The translations under genes and the position numbers were made by a program. Under the pieces are notes generated by a model. That model searched no databases and was not told the DNA's origin. It worked only from the letters and a program-made list of their open reading frames with translations. 64,000 nucleotides of DNA from contig NZ_FOOT01000002.1 in the NCBI RefSeq assembly GCF_900113285.1, positions 248,001 to 312,000 of the forward strand, written 5' to 3'. Source of the stretch: Pontibacter chinhatensis. Its GTDB lineage: Bacteria; Bacteroidota; Bacteroidia; Cytophagales; Hymenobacteraceae. Position 1 is the stretch's first letter. Each line of letters starts with the position of its first letter. Below, piece by piece: positions 12,772 through 64,000 of this stretch.

Positions 12772-13362
12772 ATGGTAAACCTACTCCTAAGTATACTGCT
12801 GCCCCTTTCCTTTATACTTACAGATACCACGAAGCTGCACCTGCTGCAGGACCTGCAGAAAGACCTGGGCCAGTTGCAGACAAGCGAGCGCCACTTTATC
12901 AGTGACAACAGCAGCCTTAGCCCTTCTGTAGAGACCGTGGCCGAGGATCTGCAACTTTTCAGTTTGGTAGCTAACCTCAACCTGAGCCAGGCTTCCTATA
13001 CCTGGCAGGAACAGGGGCCGCACCAGATCCACCGCTGGCGCTTAGACGAAGGCAACATCCGCAGCATCACCCAGATTCAGAGTATCATCCAGCTCGATAC
13101 AGTGGTAACGCAGCGCTACGCCGATAACAAGCCGCCTACCCAGCAGCATATCCGCAACAGCTTCACGTTTCGTACCTACCTGGTTTCCACGGCATCGGAG
13201 CAGCACAAGCTATACTACCTCACCGAGGAAGAGCAGGGATTGCTGGCGTATAGGATTGGGGAAAAGCAGGTAAAGATAACCTATGCCGCGTCAAAAGCTG
13301 GCCTTGCCGATGTGCTTCCCGACTTTCTCAGGCAGCTCGATAACCTGACAGCAACGCTATAA
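12772..13362 (+). CDS. Hypothetical exported protein
   Basis: A 196-residue protein not recognised. A hydrophobic N-terminus (VNLLLSILLPLSFIL) suggests a signal peptide. The body is rich in Gln, Ser and Thr with strand-like segments (TFRTYLVSTASEQHKLYYLTEEEQGLLAYRI) and ends in a helix. It lies in line behind the SIMPL gene with a terminator after it, so the three genes from 11485 may form one transcript. Confidence 0.7.
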   Translation: MVNLLLSILLPLSFILTDTTKLHLLQDLQKDLGQLQTSERHFISDNSSLSPSVETVAEDLQLFSLVANLNLSQASYTWQEQGPHQIHRWRLDEGNIRSITQIQSIIQLDTVVTQRYADNKPPTQQHIRNSFTFRTYLVSTASEQHKLYYLTEEEQGLLAYRIGEKQVKITYAASKAGLADVLPDFLRQLDNLTATL

Positions 13363-13398
13363 CTATAGCCGCAGAGGCCATACTTATAAGAGCATAAG

Positions 13399-13434
13399 AG
13401 GGCCGTCTCCGGGAGGGGCGGCCCTTGTATTTTA
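13399..13434 (+). terminator. Terminator closing the SIMPL gene group
   Basis: Inverted repeat AGGGCCG / CGGCCCT with a 13-base loop, followed by TGTATTTT. Confidence 0.75.
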
Positions 13435-13589
13435 TCCCTTCCCAAAACCTGCCGCAGCTTGTTATGGTAAAGTATAGGTAAGCAATAATGTCGTGGCAGA
13501 GGGTTCGGGTACCGACAAGCCGGCTACTAGATATGGAGCACTGGCTATACTTTCTGACAGAATGACATAAATAAAGCTTCTGGACTCCC

Positions 13590-13605
13590 TTGGCACATAG
13601 CTTGA
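13590..13605 (+). promoter_or_regulatory. Sigma-54-like element upstream of dnaK
   Basis: TTGGCAC, five bases, then TTGA resembles the sigma-54 -24/-12 consensus (TGGCAC-N5-TTGC) with one change in the -12 GC. It would start transcription about 45 bases before the dnaK ATG. No CIRCE element (the HrcA operator) is seen. This is a motif match only. Confidence 0.35.
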
Positions 13606-13661
13606 TAAAACAGAAGTAGCAAAGAAATCAAGTTGAATAAGAAATATAATAAAACTATAGA

Positions 13662-15593
13662 ATGGGAAAAATAATAGGTATTGACTTAGGTACTACCAAC
13701 TCCTGCGTTGCCGTAATGGAAGGTAACGAGCCAGTGGTGATACCTAACAGCGAAGGTCGCCGCACGACTCCGTCTATTGTGGCTTTTCTGGATAACGGAA
13801 ACGGCGAGCGTAAAGTAGGAGACCCTGCCAAGCGCCAGGCCATCACAAACCCTAAAAACACGATCGCTTCTATCAAGCGTTTCATGGGCCATAGCTACAA
13901 CGAGGTAAGCGAGGAAGCCAAGCAAGTATCCTACGATATCGTGCAGGGCTCGAACAACACGCTCCGTGTGAAGATTGGCGATAGAGAGTACACGCCACAG
14001 GAAATCTCTGCGATGGTGCTTCAGAAGATGAAGGCTACTGCCGAGGAGTACCTGGGCACTACCATCACCGAGGCGGTTATCACCGTACCGGCATACTTTA
14101 ACGACGCGCAGCGCCAGGCCACTAAAGAGGCTGGACAGATTGCTGGTCTGGAGGTGAAGCGTATCATTAACGAGCCGACAGCTGCTGCCCTTGCCTACGG
14201 CCTGGACAAAAAGCACAAAGACCAGAAAATCGCCGTGTTTGACTTAGGTGGCGGTACGTTCGATATCTCTATCCTGGAGCTGGGTGACGGCGTATTCGAA
14301 GTACTTTCTACCAACGGCGACACGCACCTGGGTGGTGACGACTTTGACCAGGTTATCATTAACTGGCTGGCCGATGAGTTCAAGAACGACGAAGGCCTGG
14401 ATCTGCGCAAGGACCCAATGGCCCTGCAGCGTCTGAAAGAAGCTGCAGAGAAAGCTAAGATCGAGCTTTCTTCTTCTCAGGAGACTGAAATCAACCTGCC
14501 ATACATCATGCCGGTAGATGGTGTGCCGAAACACCTGGTGCGCAAACTGACCCGCGCCAAGTTCGAGCAGCTGTCCGACGACCTGATCCGCCGCTCTATG
14601 GATCCATGCAAGCGTGCCCTTCAGGATGCAGGCCTGTCTACTTCCGACATCGACGAGGTGATTCTGGTAGGTGGTTCTACCCGTATCCCGAAAGTACAGG
14701 AGGAAGTAGAGAAGTTCTTCGGCAAGAAGCCTTCTAAAGGCGTGAACCCAGATGAGGTGGTGGCCATCGGTGCTGCTATCCAGGGTGGTGTACTGACAGG
14801 TGAAGTAAAAGACGTACTGCTGCTGGACGTTACGCCACTGTCACTGGGTATCGAGACCATGGGTGGTGTTTTCACTAAGCTGATTGAGGCGAACACGACG
14901 ATTCCGACAAAGAAGTCTGAGACGTTCTCCACAGCTTCTGATAACCAGCCGTCAGTGGAGATCCACGTGCTGCAGGGCGAGCGCCCAATGGCAAAGGATA
15001 ACCGCACAATCGGTCGCTTCCACCTGGATGGTATTCCACCAGCACCGCGTGGCGTGCCGCAAATCGAGGTAATCTTCGACATCGACGCCAACGGTATCCT
15101 GCACGTAACGGCTAAGGATAAGGCTACTGGCAAAGAGCAGAAGATCCGCATCGAGGCTTCGTCTGGTCTGAGCGAGCAGGAAATCGAGCGCATGCGCAAG
15201 GAGGCTGAAGCCAACGCAGAGGCTGACAAGAAGGCGAAGGAGGAAATCGAGAAGCTGAACACAGCTGACTCAATGATCTTCCAGACCGAGAAGCAGCTGA
15301 AAGAGTATGGCGACAAGCTTTCTGCCGGCAACAAGTCTAACATCGAGAACGCGCTGGGCGAGCTGAAGACCGCACACGGTGCCAAAGACATCGCCGGTAT
15401 TGACCGCGCCATTGAGAACCTGAACAATGCCTGGAGCGCAGCCTCCCAGGAGATGTATGCCGCTACGCAAGGCCAGGGTGCCCCAGGCGCTGACGCTGGC
15501 AACGGCCAGGCTGGCGGCCCGCAGGGCGCAGCCAACGATGGCGGTGTAACCGACGTGGACTACGAGGAAGTAGACGGCAGCACCAACAAGTAA
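13662..15593 (+). CDS. dnaK: Chaperone DnaK (Hsp70)
   Basis: A 643-residue Hsp70 ATPase that binds exposed hydrophobic segments of unfolded proteins in the cytoplasm. Signatures seen: [17 protein letters not shown] at the start, [12 protein letters not shown]-type motif ([14 protein letters not shown] near residue 188), and [11 protein letters not shown] near residue 338. The substrate domain follows from about residue 385 ([17 protein letters not shown]), then the helical lid and a Gly/Ala/Gln-rich tail ending [13 protein letters not shown]. grpE and dnaJ are not adjacent. It stands alone between its own upstream region and a strong terminator. Codon use is clean: the AAGTATA word found throughout the window does not occur in this gene. 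Confidence 0.98.
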
Positions 15594-61330: not shown

Positions 61331-61597
61331 CTACCCCCTCAGCAAAAACGGCTGTTCTTCAGCTTCCTCCAGCACCAGCCCCCACTTTTCCAGGATCGGC
61401 GCTTCCAGTGCTTTTTCCCTATACTCGTCGGGCGTCATGATCGGGATACCGTACACAATCGGGTAATACCGCTTGCACGAAGGGCAGGTCAGGAGCCCCT
61501 CCAGAATATCCCCGTTCTCGTGCTGCGCAAATACCTGCGACTTCAGTTCGTGCTTGTCCACGGGACAGCATAGCTTTTCTAAGAAGGATAGTTTCAT
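61331..61597 (-). CDS. Trm112-like small zinc-ribbon protein
   Basis: An 88-residue protein of the Trm112/YcaR family. N-terminal LEKLCCPVDKHELKSQ and the middle LTCPSCKRYYPIVYGIPIM (C38, C41) are the family halves; the first site is CPVD rather than CPxC. In eukaryotes and archaea Trm112 binds and activates several methyltransferases. Here it is the last of four coupled genes whose first visible member is a methyltransferase, so it may be that enzyme's partner. Its ATG overlaps the stop of the gene before (ATGA). Confidence 0.85.
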   Translation of the reverse strand: MKLSFLEKLCCPVDKHELKSQVFAQHENGDILEGLLTCPSCKRYYPIVYGIPIMTPDEYREKALEAPILEKWGLVLEEAEEQPFLLRG

Positions 61598-62244
61598 ACC
61601 TTATACTTGTTTAATGCATCCTTGTAAGCAGCGGTGGATTTTTGGGCAGAGGCAGCGTTCAGTATCCCTGAGATCACTGCCACGCCGTTAAAATCGAGCT
61701 CCTGTAGTTTATCTATATTTTCTGTGGTAATGCCTCCGGAAAGAAACAGCGGCAGCTGCGTAATCTTTCTGGCTTCCCGGATCGTGTCGGGCTGCACCAA
61801 TTCGCAGTTACCGGCTGAGGGCGAGGGAAATACGGCGCAGAAAGAGACATAATCCAGTTGACGCTCCTCAGCCCAGCGCACTACCTCCAAATTGTTGCTG
61901 CAGGTGATGCCGCAGATAAAATCCCGCCCAACCGCAGCTTTTATACTTTCAAAATCCTCGGGAATGCTATCGAAATGCACGCCTGCCAGTTCTGTATCCT
62001 TCAGGAGTTGCCATTCCTCGTTTACCAGCACCGGCACCTGATAGGCAGCAGCCAAGTCTACCAACTCCTGAATTAACAGCAACTTGTCGGAGTAAGTATA
62101 GCCGGTAGGCCAGTTGTTCCAGATCTGCAGCACGCTGGCGCCGCCGTCCAGCGCTTCCCTTACCTTCTGCAGCAGCAGGGGCTTGTCCATACTTGGGTCC
62201 AGCACCAGGTATACGCCACCCGTAATAGGCTTATACTTTCTCAT
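61594..62244 (-). CDS. Thiamine-phosphate-synthase-like protein (ThiE/TenI fold), divergent
   Basis: A 216-residue TIM-barrel protein of the ThiE/TenI family: GGVYLVLDPSMDKPLLLQKVREALDGGASVLQI, LAGVHFDSIPEDF, VSFCAVFPSPSAG and PLFLSGGITTENIDKL follow the family plan. Several usual active-site words are changed: the (L/V)RxK after GAxxxQ is IWNNWP, NDR is NEEW, GVHLGQ is GVHFDS and the FxTxTK loop is FPSPSA. It may therefore not make thiamine phosphate. It overlaps both neighbours by 4 bases (ATGA). No other thiamine genes are next to it. Confidence 0.82.
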   Translation of the reverse strand: MRKYKPITGGVYLVLDPSMDKPLLLQKVREALDGGASVLQIWNNWPTGYTYSDKLLLIQELVDLAAAYQVPVLVNEEWQLLKDTELAGVHFDSIPEDFESIKAAVGRDFICGITCSNNLEVVRWAEERQLDYVSFCAVFPSPSAGNCELVQPDTIREARKITQLPLFLSGGITTENIDKLQELDFNGVAVISGILNAASAQKSTAAYKDALNKYKV

Positions 62245-63305
62245 CTCCAGCCAGCTTTATATGCGTTAAAAAATGCCTCCCAGTAGGGGTCTTTGCCATC
62301 AAAGGAAAGCGGCCGCTCCTCATCCTGCTCCACGATTCTGAATCCGGCTTCCCTGGGGGTTAGCTCTCCTATCACCGTTGCCCTGATAGCCTTGGTTGCC
62401 AGATGGTTTATCAGCTTCTGCTCGCTTCCCCGCTTCACAGCCATGATCATAGATCCGGCGCCCACACAAAAACGGTGGTCAACACCAAAAAGCCCGGCAA
62501 TTTGCTCCTGCGCCTCCCCCACCGGCAGGGCATCGTCATAAATCCGGAAGCCACAGCCGGCCGCATTAGCCATTTCGCAGATAGCTCCCACCACGCCGCC
62601 TTCGGTAACGTCGTGCATGGCCTTTAGCTCCGCATTGCTTTGTAGCACCTCTTTCGCAGCCAGGGCATCGGGCAGTGCGGAGGTGCGGTAGAAATTCTCG
62701 CAGCCGCTCTCCCATACTTCCTTGCCGAGTTTATTCTTCACCGTTTCCGGAAAGCTCATGGCCAAAATAGAAGTTGATACCAGGGCCGTTTCCTTGGTCA
62801 CGATCAGTATATCGCCTGCTTCCGCCCGGTTGCTGGTGAGGATTTCGTCCAGCGGGGCCGTTAGGAACATGGTGCCCCCGCCGGAGATGGTGGAGTTCTG
62901 CCCCTCGATCTGCCCCGTGTGGCCGCCGGTGATGGAGACACCGATATCCTCGCAAAACTGATGGATGAAGGTCCAGTACTCCCTGAAGCCCTCCAGCGAC
63001 AGGCTGGTGGGCAGGTTGAGCACGAACTGCGCATACATGGGGGCAAAGCCGGTGGAGGCCATGTCGTTGGCCAGCAGGTGCACCGACAGCCAGGCCGATT
63101 CCCTCAGCCCCAGCGAGGGGATAAGCGAGAGCGGATCGCTGGAAACGGCCATGCCCAAGCTATTTCCCAGGTCGATGACAGCCGTATCCACGCCGAATTT
63201 CGGGCCTACCAGCACCTCCGCACGCCTTGCGCCGCTAAAAGGCAGCAGCACGTCTTTAAAAGTAGTGGCAGCTACCTTTCCGGAATTATCGTCAAAGGCG
63301 CTCAT
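62241..63305 (-). CDS. AIR synthase-related (PurM/HypE/ThiL-like) ATP-dependent protein
   Basis: About 354 residues from ATG 63305, chosen because it overlaps the upstream stop as ATGA; the frame is open to 63404. It has the PurM superfamily plan: VGPKFGVDTAVIDLG (in place of GDDAAV), AVSSDPLSLIPSLGLRESAWLSVHLLANDMASTGFAPMY, VSITGGHTGQIEG, then the C-terminal domain with MHDVTEGGVVGAICEMANAAG. The HDVTEGG(V)xGA motif is as in HypE and ThiL. It would activate a carboxylate, amide or phosphate with ATP; the substrate is unknown. The gene is too short a match to name as purM, hypE or thiL, and no hydrogenase or thiamine genes are seen. It is coupled to a methyltransferase before and a ThiE-like gene after. 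Confidence 0.82.
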   Translation of the reverse strand: MSAFDDNSGKVAATTFKDVLLPFSGARRAEVLVGPKFGVDTAVIDLGNSLGMAVSSDPLSLIPSLGLRESAWLSVHLLANDMASTGFAPMYAQFVLNLPTSLSLEGFREYWTFIHQFCEDIGVSITGGHTGQIEGQNSTISGGGTMFLTAPLDEILTSNRAEAGDILIVTKETALVSTSILAMSFPETVKNKLGKEVWESGCENFYRTSALPDALAAKEVLQSNAELKAMHDVTEGGVVGAICEMANAAGCGFRIYDDALPVGEAQEQIAGLFGVDHRFCVGAGSMIMAVKRGSEQKLINHLATKAIRATVIGELTPREAGFRIVEQDEERPLSFDGKDPYWEAFFNAYKAGWR

Positions 63306-64000
63306 TTCACATCGTTTAAGCGTACATGCAACCCGAAGAAATCGCCGTAAGGCTGCTGCCACTGCTGCACCGGAAACCACTCCGGCAGGCCCGTGGCCGT
63401 CCACTCCACGGTGTAGTCCCGGTCGTGCAGGGCCTCGGCAATCACGGCCATCAACTTTTTGGGGGTGTAGAACGTGGCGGTTACGTAGAAAGGATTCTTG
63501 CCAAGCAGCTCCTGTATCCTCCTTCGGGCCACTTTAGGGGAGTTGCGGTTCATCATGCCGAATACGATGCCATACTTGCCCACCCGCGCCGCCTCCCGGA
63601 TTACCTTCACCGGATCTTTGTAGTACTCGAAGGTGGTGATAAAAGCCAGGGCATCGAACGTGTGGTCTTTGAAGGGCATGTGGTGCGAGTCGGCCAGGAC
63701 CAGGTCGCCGTCGAACAGATGCACGCCCTGCCCCAGCATAAAAGGCGAGATGTCGCCGCCGCTGGCCTCGATGCCGATTTCCTTCCACCAGCGGGTGAAA
63801 CGGGTGGTGCCGCAGCCGAACTCGAGCAGGGTCTTCACGCGCTCATCTTTCTTGATCAGCTGCCCGATCACTTTCTTCTGCCATACTTCGGCCCGCTTGT
63901 AGCGGCCTTCATACCAGAGTTCATAGGTGTCGGTGTGGTCGCGGTTAAAGAACCACTCCTCGCGGCCCTGCCACTTGCGCAGGTCGCGGGTTACCAGGTC
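63302..64000 (-). CDS. Class I SAM methyltransferase (5' end outside window)
   Basis: The frame is open to the last base of the window, so the start is missing; a GTG at 63871 is internal. The visible ~232 residues begin upstream with WQGREEWFFNRDHTDTYELWYEGRYKRAE, then motif I TLLEFGCGTTRFTRWW, the acidic strand EASGGDISPFM, LVLADSHHMPFKDHTFDALAFITTFEYYKD (motifs II-III) and a C-terminal domain. It is the first visible gene of a four-gene coupled operon (stop overlaps the next start as ATGA). Together with the Trm112-like protein at the operon end, a methyltransferase-activator pair is suggested. Confidence 0.85.
   Translation of the reverse strand, partial: DLVTRDLRKWQGREEWFFNRDHTDTYELWYEGRYKRAEVWQKKVIGQLIKKDERVKTLLEFGCGTTRFTRWWKEIGIEASGGDISPFMLGQGVHLFDGDLVLADSHHMPFKDHTFDALAFITTFEYYKDPVKVIREAARVGKYGIVFGMMNRNSPKVARRRIQELLGKNPFYVTATFYTPKKLMAVIAEALHDRDYTVEWTATGLPEWFPVQQWQQPYGDFFGLHVRLNDVK

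Follow-up and report, generated by a model that had tools for sequence, protein, structure and literature searches.

In Bacteroides thetaiotaomicron, thiamine pyrophosphate (TPP) riboswitches precede the biosynthesis operon thiSEGCHF-tenI, OMthi and pnuT-tnr3, and thiamine lowers expression of the biosynthesis operon, according to the accessible text of the study (PMC5613172). More generally, TPP riboswitches control mostly thiamine synthesis and transport, as described in the accessible part of a riboswitch regulon survey (PMC3766115). Here we describe a four-gene operon, encoding a methyltransferase, an AIRS-like protein, a ThiE-like protein and a Trm112-like protein, at one end of a 64,000-nucleotide stretch of the Pontibacter chinhatensis genome (hereafter the window; contig C13:248001–312000; genome 5.07 Mb). 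As far as the thi operon of B. thetaiotaomicron is described in that study's accessible text, the two systems share a TPP riboswitch, a host in Bacteroidota, a separate TPP-controlled outer-membrane receptor and a ThiE/TenI-fold protein. In contrast to that operon, the one described here lacks thiS, thiG, thiC, thiH and thiF, it includes the methyltransferase, Trm112-like and AIRS-like genes, and the residues that bind diphosphate are missing from its ThiE-fold protein. The four-gene set almost certainly serves thiamine metabolism, and the operon probably constitutes a TPP-controlled route that gives thiamine monophosphate (TMP), or a TMP precursor, to ThiL in genomes that mostly lack ThiC.

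The accessible part of the regulon survey contains nothing resembling the four-gene set (PMC3766115), and the word methyltransferase is absent from the main text of a paper about unknown algal genes with TPP riboswitches (PMC4260697). Moreover, judged by titles and the beginnings of abstracts, no description of the set was found in the open-access literature. To that extent, support was obtained for the initial annotation, made from the window sequence, which had proposed an undescribed small-molecule or cofactor pathway.

The operon and its TPP riboswitch

The four genes are encoded on the minus strand. Gene 1, at 63302–64000 in the window, encodes a class I S-adenosylmethionine (SAM)-dependent methyltransferase (Pfam Methyltransf_11, 55.5 bits) and is clipped by the window edge; its GTG start codon lies 27 bases outside (contig C13:312027), giving a full length of 241 amino acids. 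Gene 2 (62241–63305) begins with an ATG overlapping the stop codon of gene 1 and encodes a 354-residue AIRS-like protein of the PurM/HypE/ThiL superfamily (Pfam AIRS, 39.2 bits; AIRS_C, 72.5 bits). Gene 3 (61594–62244) encodes the 216-residue ThiE/TenI-fold protein (Pfam TMP-TENI, 109.6 bits), and gene 4 (61331–61597) the 88-residue Trm112-like protein (Pfam Trm112p, 40.5 bits against a cut-off of 22). All four Pfam families scored above the curated cut-offs and an ATGA overlap was present at all three junctions, bearing out the four-gene coupled operon proposed initially. A second SAM-methyltransferase-like gene, recognised by sequence (304 amino acids; L002:4863–5777), lies on the opposite strand 1.3 kb upstream of the operon.

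A TPP riboswitch (Rfam RF00059; 59.0 bits against a gathering score of 54.3) was found 106–208 bases beyond the window end, on the same minus strand as the operon. It corresponds to positions 64106–64208 (contig C13:312106–312208; L002:3607–3709), and its 3′ end is 78 bases before the methyltransferase start codon. The initial annotation had advised looking upstream of the window, where the riboswitch is indeed present, and had stated that the operon has no thiamine neighbours, which is wrong both here and, by the model described below, in all 80 named-genome loci; the thiamine link had been missed because the riboswitch lies beyond the window end. Rfam also recognised a TPP riboswitch in six of the first eight orthologous loci of the host's order, Cytophagales. 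Locus L016 lacks the upstream part, and the same genome (G111) has a riboswitch before the methyltransferase on another contig; with locus L148 included, a TPP riboswitch precedes the operon in 8/9 carriers of the order. A riboswitch model (R1) built from seven operon-linked sites of the order placed a riboswitch directly before the methyltransferase in 80/80 named-genome loci with E values of 1.2e-11 or better, although R1 was trained on like sites and at least two of these loci (L052 and L070) belong to genomes that gave training sites. For this reason, seven of the 80 loci were also checked with the Rfam model; six scored above the gathering score and L057 scored below it.

The order was sampled with 148 genomes, nine of which carry the operon. 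Orthologs of the AIRS-like protein were almost full length in eight of them (47–100% identity) and a contig-end fragment in the ninth (36%), and the next matches in the order had at most 27% identity and much lower scores. The four genes were found in order on a single contig in seven of these carriers and were broken by contig ends in G025 and G111. In addition, named genomes were scanned using the methyltransferase as query; this gave 225 relatives, and the analysis covered the 80 best loci. The best 80 all belong to Bacteroidota in the broad sense, including Pontibacter, Algoriphagus, Cyclobacterium, Arenibacter, Salegentibacter, Chryseobacterium, Sphingobacterium, Chitinophaga, Mariniphaga and members of Balneolales, among others, and the closest matches came from seven Pontibacter genomes (92–98% identity). 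Two Arenibacter genomes contributed two loci each (L088 and L120; L089 and L121), that is, two copies of the whole operon. All four genes kept the same order and strand in 78/80 loci, the exceptions (L064 and L076) being at contig ends, and all three gaps between segments aligned to the profile hidden Markov models were 50 bases or less in 66 of the 78. The four-gene arrangement is beyond chance. Separation of the genes in relatives, which the initial annotation had named as evidence against its view, was thus not what we found.

Clustering of neighbouring genes of at least 90 amino acids, within flanks of at most 10 kb of which some were shortened by contig ends, gave no other neighbour family common to more than 11 of the 80 loci. 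Individual neighbours included a nucleoside hydrolase-like gene directly 3′ of the operon in Rhodocytophaga (L052:6241–7227) and, in carrier G044, an amidohydrolase gene (Pfam Amidohydro_1; L139:2487–3857) 24 bases upstream of the operon on the same strand. The most conserved member of the set is the methyltransferase, with a mean column identity of 83% (43 sequences), compared with 63% for the AIRS-like (42 sequences), 52% for the ThiE-like (45) and 54% for the Trm112-like protein (8). No relative of the AIRS-like protein was confirmed in a scan of viral contigs, and a plasmid scan gave only distant matches to the methyltransferase; the ten plasmid matches listed for the ThiE-like protein were ordinary ThiE or unannotated.

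Features of the four proteins

The structure model of the ThiE-like protein (predicted local distance difference test, pLDDT, 95.5) matched thiamin phosphate synthase 2tps (template modelling score, TM, 0.85), and its TM to TenI (3qh2) was 0.75. Its score was below the cut-off of the NCBIfam ThiE family TIGR00693 (101.9 of 145.1 bits). We compared 79 operon ThiE-like sequences with five canonical ThiE of the order, using the residue numbering of B. subtilis ThiE; two of the seven comparison rows, L038|4 (TenI-like) and L037|11 (a fragment), were set aside as non-canonical. R59 (W in 77 sequences, Y in 2), K61 (one R, mostly N or H), D112 (mostly P) and K159 (mostly A, V or S) were absent from all 79 operon proteins, and D93 was kept in three and otherwise replaced mostly by N or E. 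The five canonical ThiE keep all five residues, which we take to be the diphosphate (hydroxymethylpyrimidine diphosphate) and Mg2+ residues of ThiE. In contrast, Q57, H107 and the GG pair of the phosphate loop, which the operon protein shares with ThiE/TenI along with the fold, were kept in 79/79 sequences and N92 in 74/79. Furthermore, D92, T114, C136 and C147 (window numbering) are invariant among the ThiE-like proteins; D92, C136 and C147 are new with respect to ThiE/TenI. The altered active-site residues on a ThiE fold, which had been noticed initially in the window protein, were thus found throughout the 79 sequences. The protein is predicted to keep the ThiE fold and phosphate loop while having lost the residues for hydroxymethylpyrimidine (HMP) diphosphate and Mg2+. 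A canonical TMP synthase was judged unlikely, as four of the five residues are gone from all 79 sequences and D93 from 76.

The AIRS-like protein resembles HypE, ThiL, SelD and PurM in having both AIRS domains, and HypE was the top-scoring family among solved structures (E = 1.8e-18). However, it fell below every curated NCBIfam cut-off tried: hypE (TIGR02124; 69.9 of 251.6 bits), thiL (TIGR01379; 62.8 of 184.15 bits), selD (56.8 of 125 bits) and purM (19.3 of 236.35 bits). Its motif also differs, the AIRS-like proteins having HDVTEGG where the solved HypE chains shown have D-[AP]-T-R-[GA]-G, and eight aligned AIRS-like sequences had no cysteine within their final 40 columns, so that they lack the C-terminal cysteine of HypE. 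A hydrogenase, purine or selenium role is unlikely given these scores and the lack of such genes among the shared neighbours. A role as the genome's only ThiL was rejected because a separate ThiL exists, to which the AIRS-like protein is 21% identical. In the plasmid collection, the top relatives were haloarchaeal AIR synthase family proteins (31% identity over the whole length). In all three Haloarcula plasmids found, the gene for the relative is divergent from adjacent genes whose annotations are thiamine-binding protein and thiamine transporter protein, and a Pfam Thiamine_BP match was obtained in the one plasmid checked.

Seven orthologs of the methyltransferase were 70–93% identical to it. 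The top folds matched by its model were other single-domain methyltransferases (1vlm, 3l8d and 2gs9), followed at rank 5 by Hvo_0019–Trm112 (6f5z) and at ranks 11 and 17 by Bud23 (6g4w and 4qtu); as the model is middling (pLDDT 77), these matches serve as a guide only. The Trm112-like protein scored 64.8 of the 77 bits needed for NCBIfam NF038101 (archaeal Trm112). The zinc-knuckle signature [C/D]PX[C/D]-X19-36-CX2C was found in 75/78 other Trm112-like members and, by eye, in the window protein; in the accessible text of a 2017 review, this signature is assigned to a short archaeal Trm112 subfamily that is compared with bacterial members, the function of bacterial Trm112 is described as unknown, and methyltransferase fusions are mentioned (PMC5372719). 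The operon thus resembles the Trm112–methyltransferase pairs Hvo_0019 and Bud23 in its zinc-knuckle signature and matching methyltransferase fold, and the Trm112-like protein is likely the methyltransferase's partner, as judged by linkage (78/80 loci) and by the fold likeness to both. In contrast to the eukaryotic pairs, which act on the translation machinery, the operon pair stands behind a TPP riboswitch. The presence of the riboswitch in 80/80 loci argues against tRNA or ribosome methylation as the operon's main role.

Thiamine genes in operon carriers

The content of thiamine genes (ThiC, ThiD, the thiamine pyrophosphokinase TPK, ThiL and TMP-TENI) was surveyed in the carriers. A wider carrier set of 58 combined the nine of the order with 49 named genomes, and the searches for ThiD and TPK covered 39 of the 58; at least two genomes occur twice in the set (G154 = G055 and G166 = G119, with identical match coordinates). 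ThiC was present in 43/148 genomes of the order, in 0/9 carriers versus 43/139 others (Fisher p = 0.059), and in 4/58 carriers of the wider set (p = 0.0002 against the 139 non-carriers of the order; 0.0003 without the two duplicates), these p values being guides since the compared sets were sampled differently and their members are related and not independent. ThiD (TIGR00097) reached at least 139 bits in 4/39 carriers, the same four that hold ThiC, with one above the curated cut-off, and in the other 35 it gave at most 64 bits or no match. TPK (PF04263) was found in 5/39 carriers and 11/148 genomes of the order. ThiL, in contrast to TPK, was above the cut-off in 133/148 genomes and exceeded 300 bits in 9/9 carriers (329 bits in the window genome). 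Each of the nine carriers had one TMP-TENI protein above the cut-off, which in eight was the operon's own, and the ThiE-like operon protein was the only one found in the window genome; in G025 the sole TMP-TENI protein is encoded where another contig begins, the place at which the clipped operon would continue. By gene content, most carriers thus lack the known HMP branch and have ThiL as the end step.

The window genome has one further TPP riboswitch, located before a TonB-dependent receptor gene with genes for a PnuC-type transporter and a NadR-like kinase nearby. The other TPP riboswitch matches in the nine carriers also precede TonB receptors (assigned by eye, except for the window genome's own), apart from the match in G119 described below. 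The TPP-controlled TonB receptor adjoins genes for a NadR-like kinase of the AAA_28 family and a transporter of the PnuC type at L006:11313–13051 (contig C15), L140:4831–6017 and L143:8231–9381, of which L006 was checked with Pfam. Because TPK occurs in 11 of the 148 genomes and ThiL in 133, the NadR-like kinase is a candidate for a thiamine kinase that forms TMP. In G119, a TPP-riboswitch-like match of 40.9 bits, below the gathering score, lies directly before a PnuC-type transporter gene (L144:1797–1898). The same genome encodes a protein (L143:3603–4250) that begins with MSSHHIVR, resembling the start of the TPK of carriers G171 and G193, and has no Pfam match; it looks like a degenerate thiamine pyrophosphokinase. 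In G062, a TPP riboswitch and TonB receptor are followed by an NMT1/THI5-like protein (PF09084; L146:2004–5351) with no signal peptide recognised by eye, which might act either in HMP synthesis or as a binding protein.

A putative route to thiamine monophosphate

In Bacteroidota with ThiC and ThiD mostly absent, the operon probably takes the place of the thi biosynthesis operon of relatives, beside the separately TPP-controlled TonB receptor. TPP would control the operon through the riboswitch, presumably by repression, and the operon would most likely turn some precursor or altered vitamer into TMP, which the separate ThiL would convert to TPP. The methyltransferase, held by the Trm112-like protein, would probably methylate a small-molecule substrate, which the AIRS-like protein would phosphorylate or activate using ATP. 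The ThiE-fold protein would probably bind a thiazole phosphate or thiamine phosphate through its kept phosphate loop and make or rearrange a bond, dispensing with the diphosphate and Mg2+ of true ThiE. TMP is the natural meeting point because ThiL is near-universal in the order and TPK rare. In the Balneolales locus L056, a ThiL gene (290.7 bits; 12988–13992) stands as a fifth gene 22 bases past the Trm112-like stop codon, and this locus together with gene content points towards TMP as the product without proving it. We infer the repression by TPP, the direction to TMP, the roles and order of the enzymes, and the substrate.

Several observations weigh against a route to TMP. Of the 80 loci, L056 is the one in which a fifth gene was noticed to be ThiL, and ThiL is present with or without the operon in the order, hence not diagnostic. 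The avoidance of ThiC by carriers within the order is borderline and the genomes are related, hence not independent; four carriers of the wider set hold ThiC alongside the operon. Moreover, 96 of the 105 genomes of the order without ThiC also lack the operon, which is therefore not needed for life without ThiC. In carrier G044 no TPP riboswitch was recognised before the operon, and AIRS relatives without thiamine neighbours were found in Halobacterium, Haloferax, Acaryochloris and Acetoanaerobium (one locus each). The TenI-like protein L038 of the order keeps R59 and K159 and lacks K61, D93 and D112, so such losses do not alone indicate new chemistry, and because part of the residue loss is found in this TenI-type protein as well, a TenI-like role for the ThiE-like protein is possible. 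Finally, the route is deduced from gene content, the riboswitch and sequence, and its activity and substrate are putative.

One alternative is that the operon encodes ordinary thiamine enzymes, with the ThiE-like protein as a divergent TMP synthase or TenI-type thiazole tautomerase, the AIRS-like protein as a second pathway kinase, and the methyltransferase and Trm112-like protein as unrelated genes sharing the promoter. The ThiE/TenI fold, the TMP-TENI score above the cut-off, the status of sole such protein in the nine carriers and the riboswitch would all fit, and this alternative gained a little in probability because L038 shows three of the five losses. We still consider it unlikely, since R59, K61, D112 and K159 occur in none and D93 in three of the 79 operon proteins but are kept in the five canonical ThiE. 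Furthermore, the carriers without ThiC gave no strong ThiD match either, so that HMP diphosphate is not expected in them, a separate ThiL is present in all nine carriers of the order, and the methyltransferase, as the most conserved member (83% against 63% and 52%), is a poor fit for a passenger.

The receptors behind the other riboswitch matches make the carriers look like importers, the transporter in G119 being a single case below the cut-off, which suits an operon for the repair or recycling of damaged (oxidised, methylated or ring-opened) thiamine or TPP in place of use of a separate precursor. That the operon is optional (9/148 genomes) and coexists with ThiC in 4/58 carriers is consistent with such a function. 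However, no hydrolase, oxidoreductase or Nudix family was found among the shared neighbours and a SAM methyltransferase would be an odd repair tool, making repair quite unlikely. Natural-product gene sets commonly combine a methyltransferase with an enzyme that uses ATP, and the operon is sporadic in the order (9/148); the genes could then make a thiamine-like natural product or a modified, non-cofactor TPP, with TPP control merely tuning supply. We regard this as very unlikely, as no further widely shared gene lies beside the operon, the methyltransferase changes very slowly, and TPP riboswitches control mostly thiamine synthesis and transport according to the accessible part of the survey (PMC3766115).

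A TPP-controlled route to TMP or its precursor is the reading that we prefer. A more specific form of it, which we offer as speculation and consider hardly probable as a whole, is a complete non-canonical thiamine phosphate route in which methylation replaces the diphosphate leaving-group chemistry. In this scheme, the substrate of the Trm112-held methyltransferase would be a thioether or amine of the pyrimidine, such as a thiaminase product or aminomethylpyrimidine, and methylation would yield a sulfonium or quaternary ammonium. The AIRS-like kinase would make thiazole phosphate, and the ThiE-fold enzyme, no longer dependent on diphosphate or Mg2+, would join the pyrimidine to it. If true, the scheme would give each gene a job, explain the loss of the diphosphate site and assign a bacterial Trm112 a role outside translation.

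The gene set looks like an undescribed way to make or recover vitamin B1 and may hide new chemistry. For a bacterial Trm112, it provides a methyltransferase as constant neighbour and a metabolic setting for testing. Moreover, the 105 of 148 genomes of the order without ThiC would be classed as lacking thiamine synthesis, and the presence in such genomes of a conserved, TPP riboswitch-linked gene set could shift predictions of which organisms depend on which others for vitamin B1.

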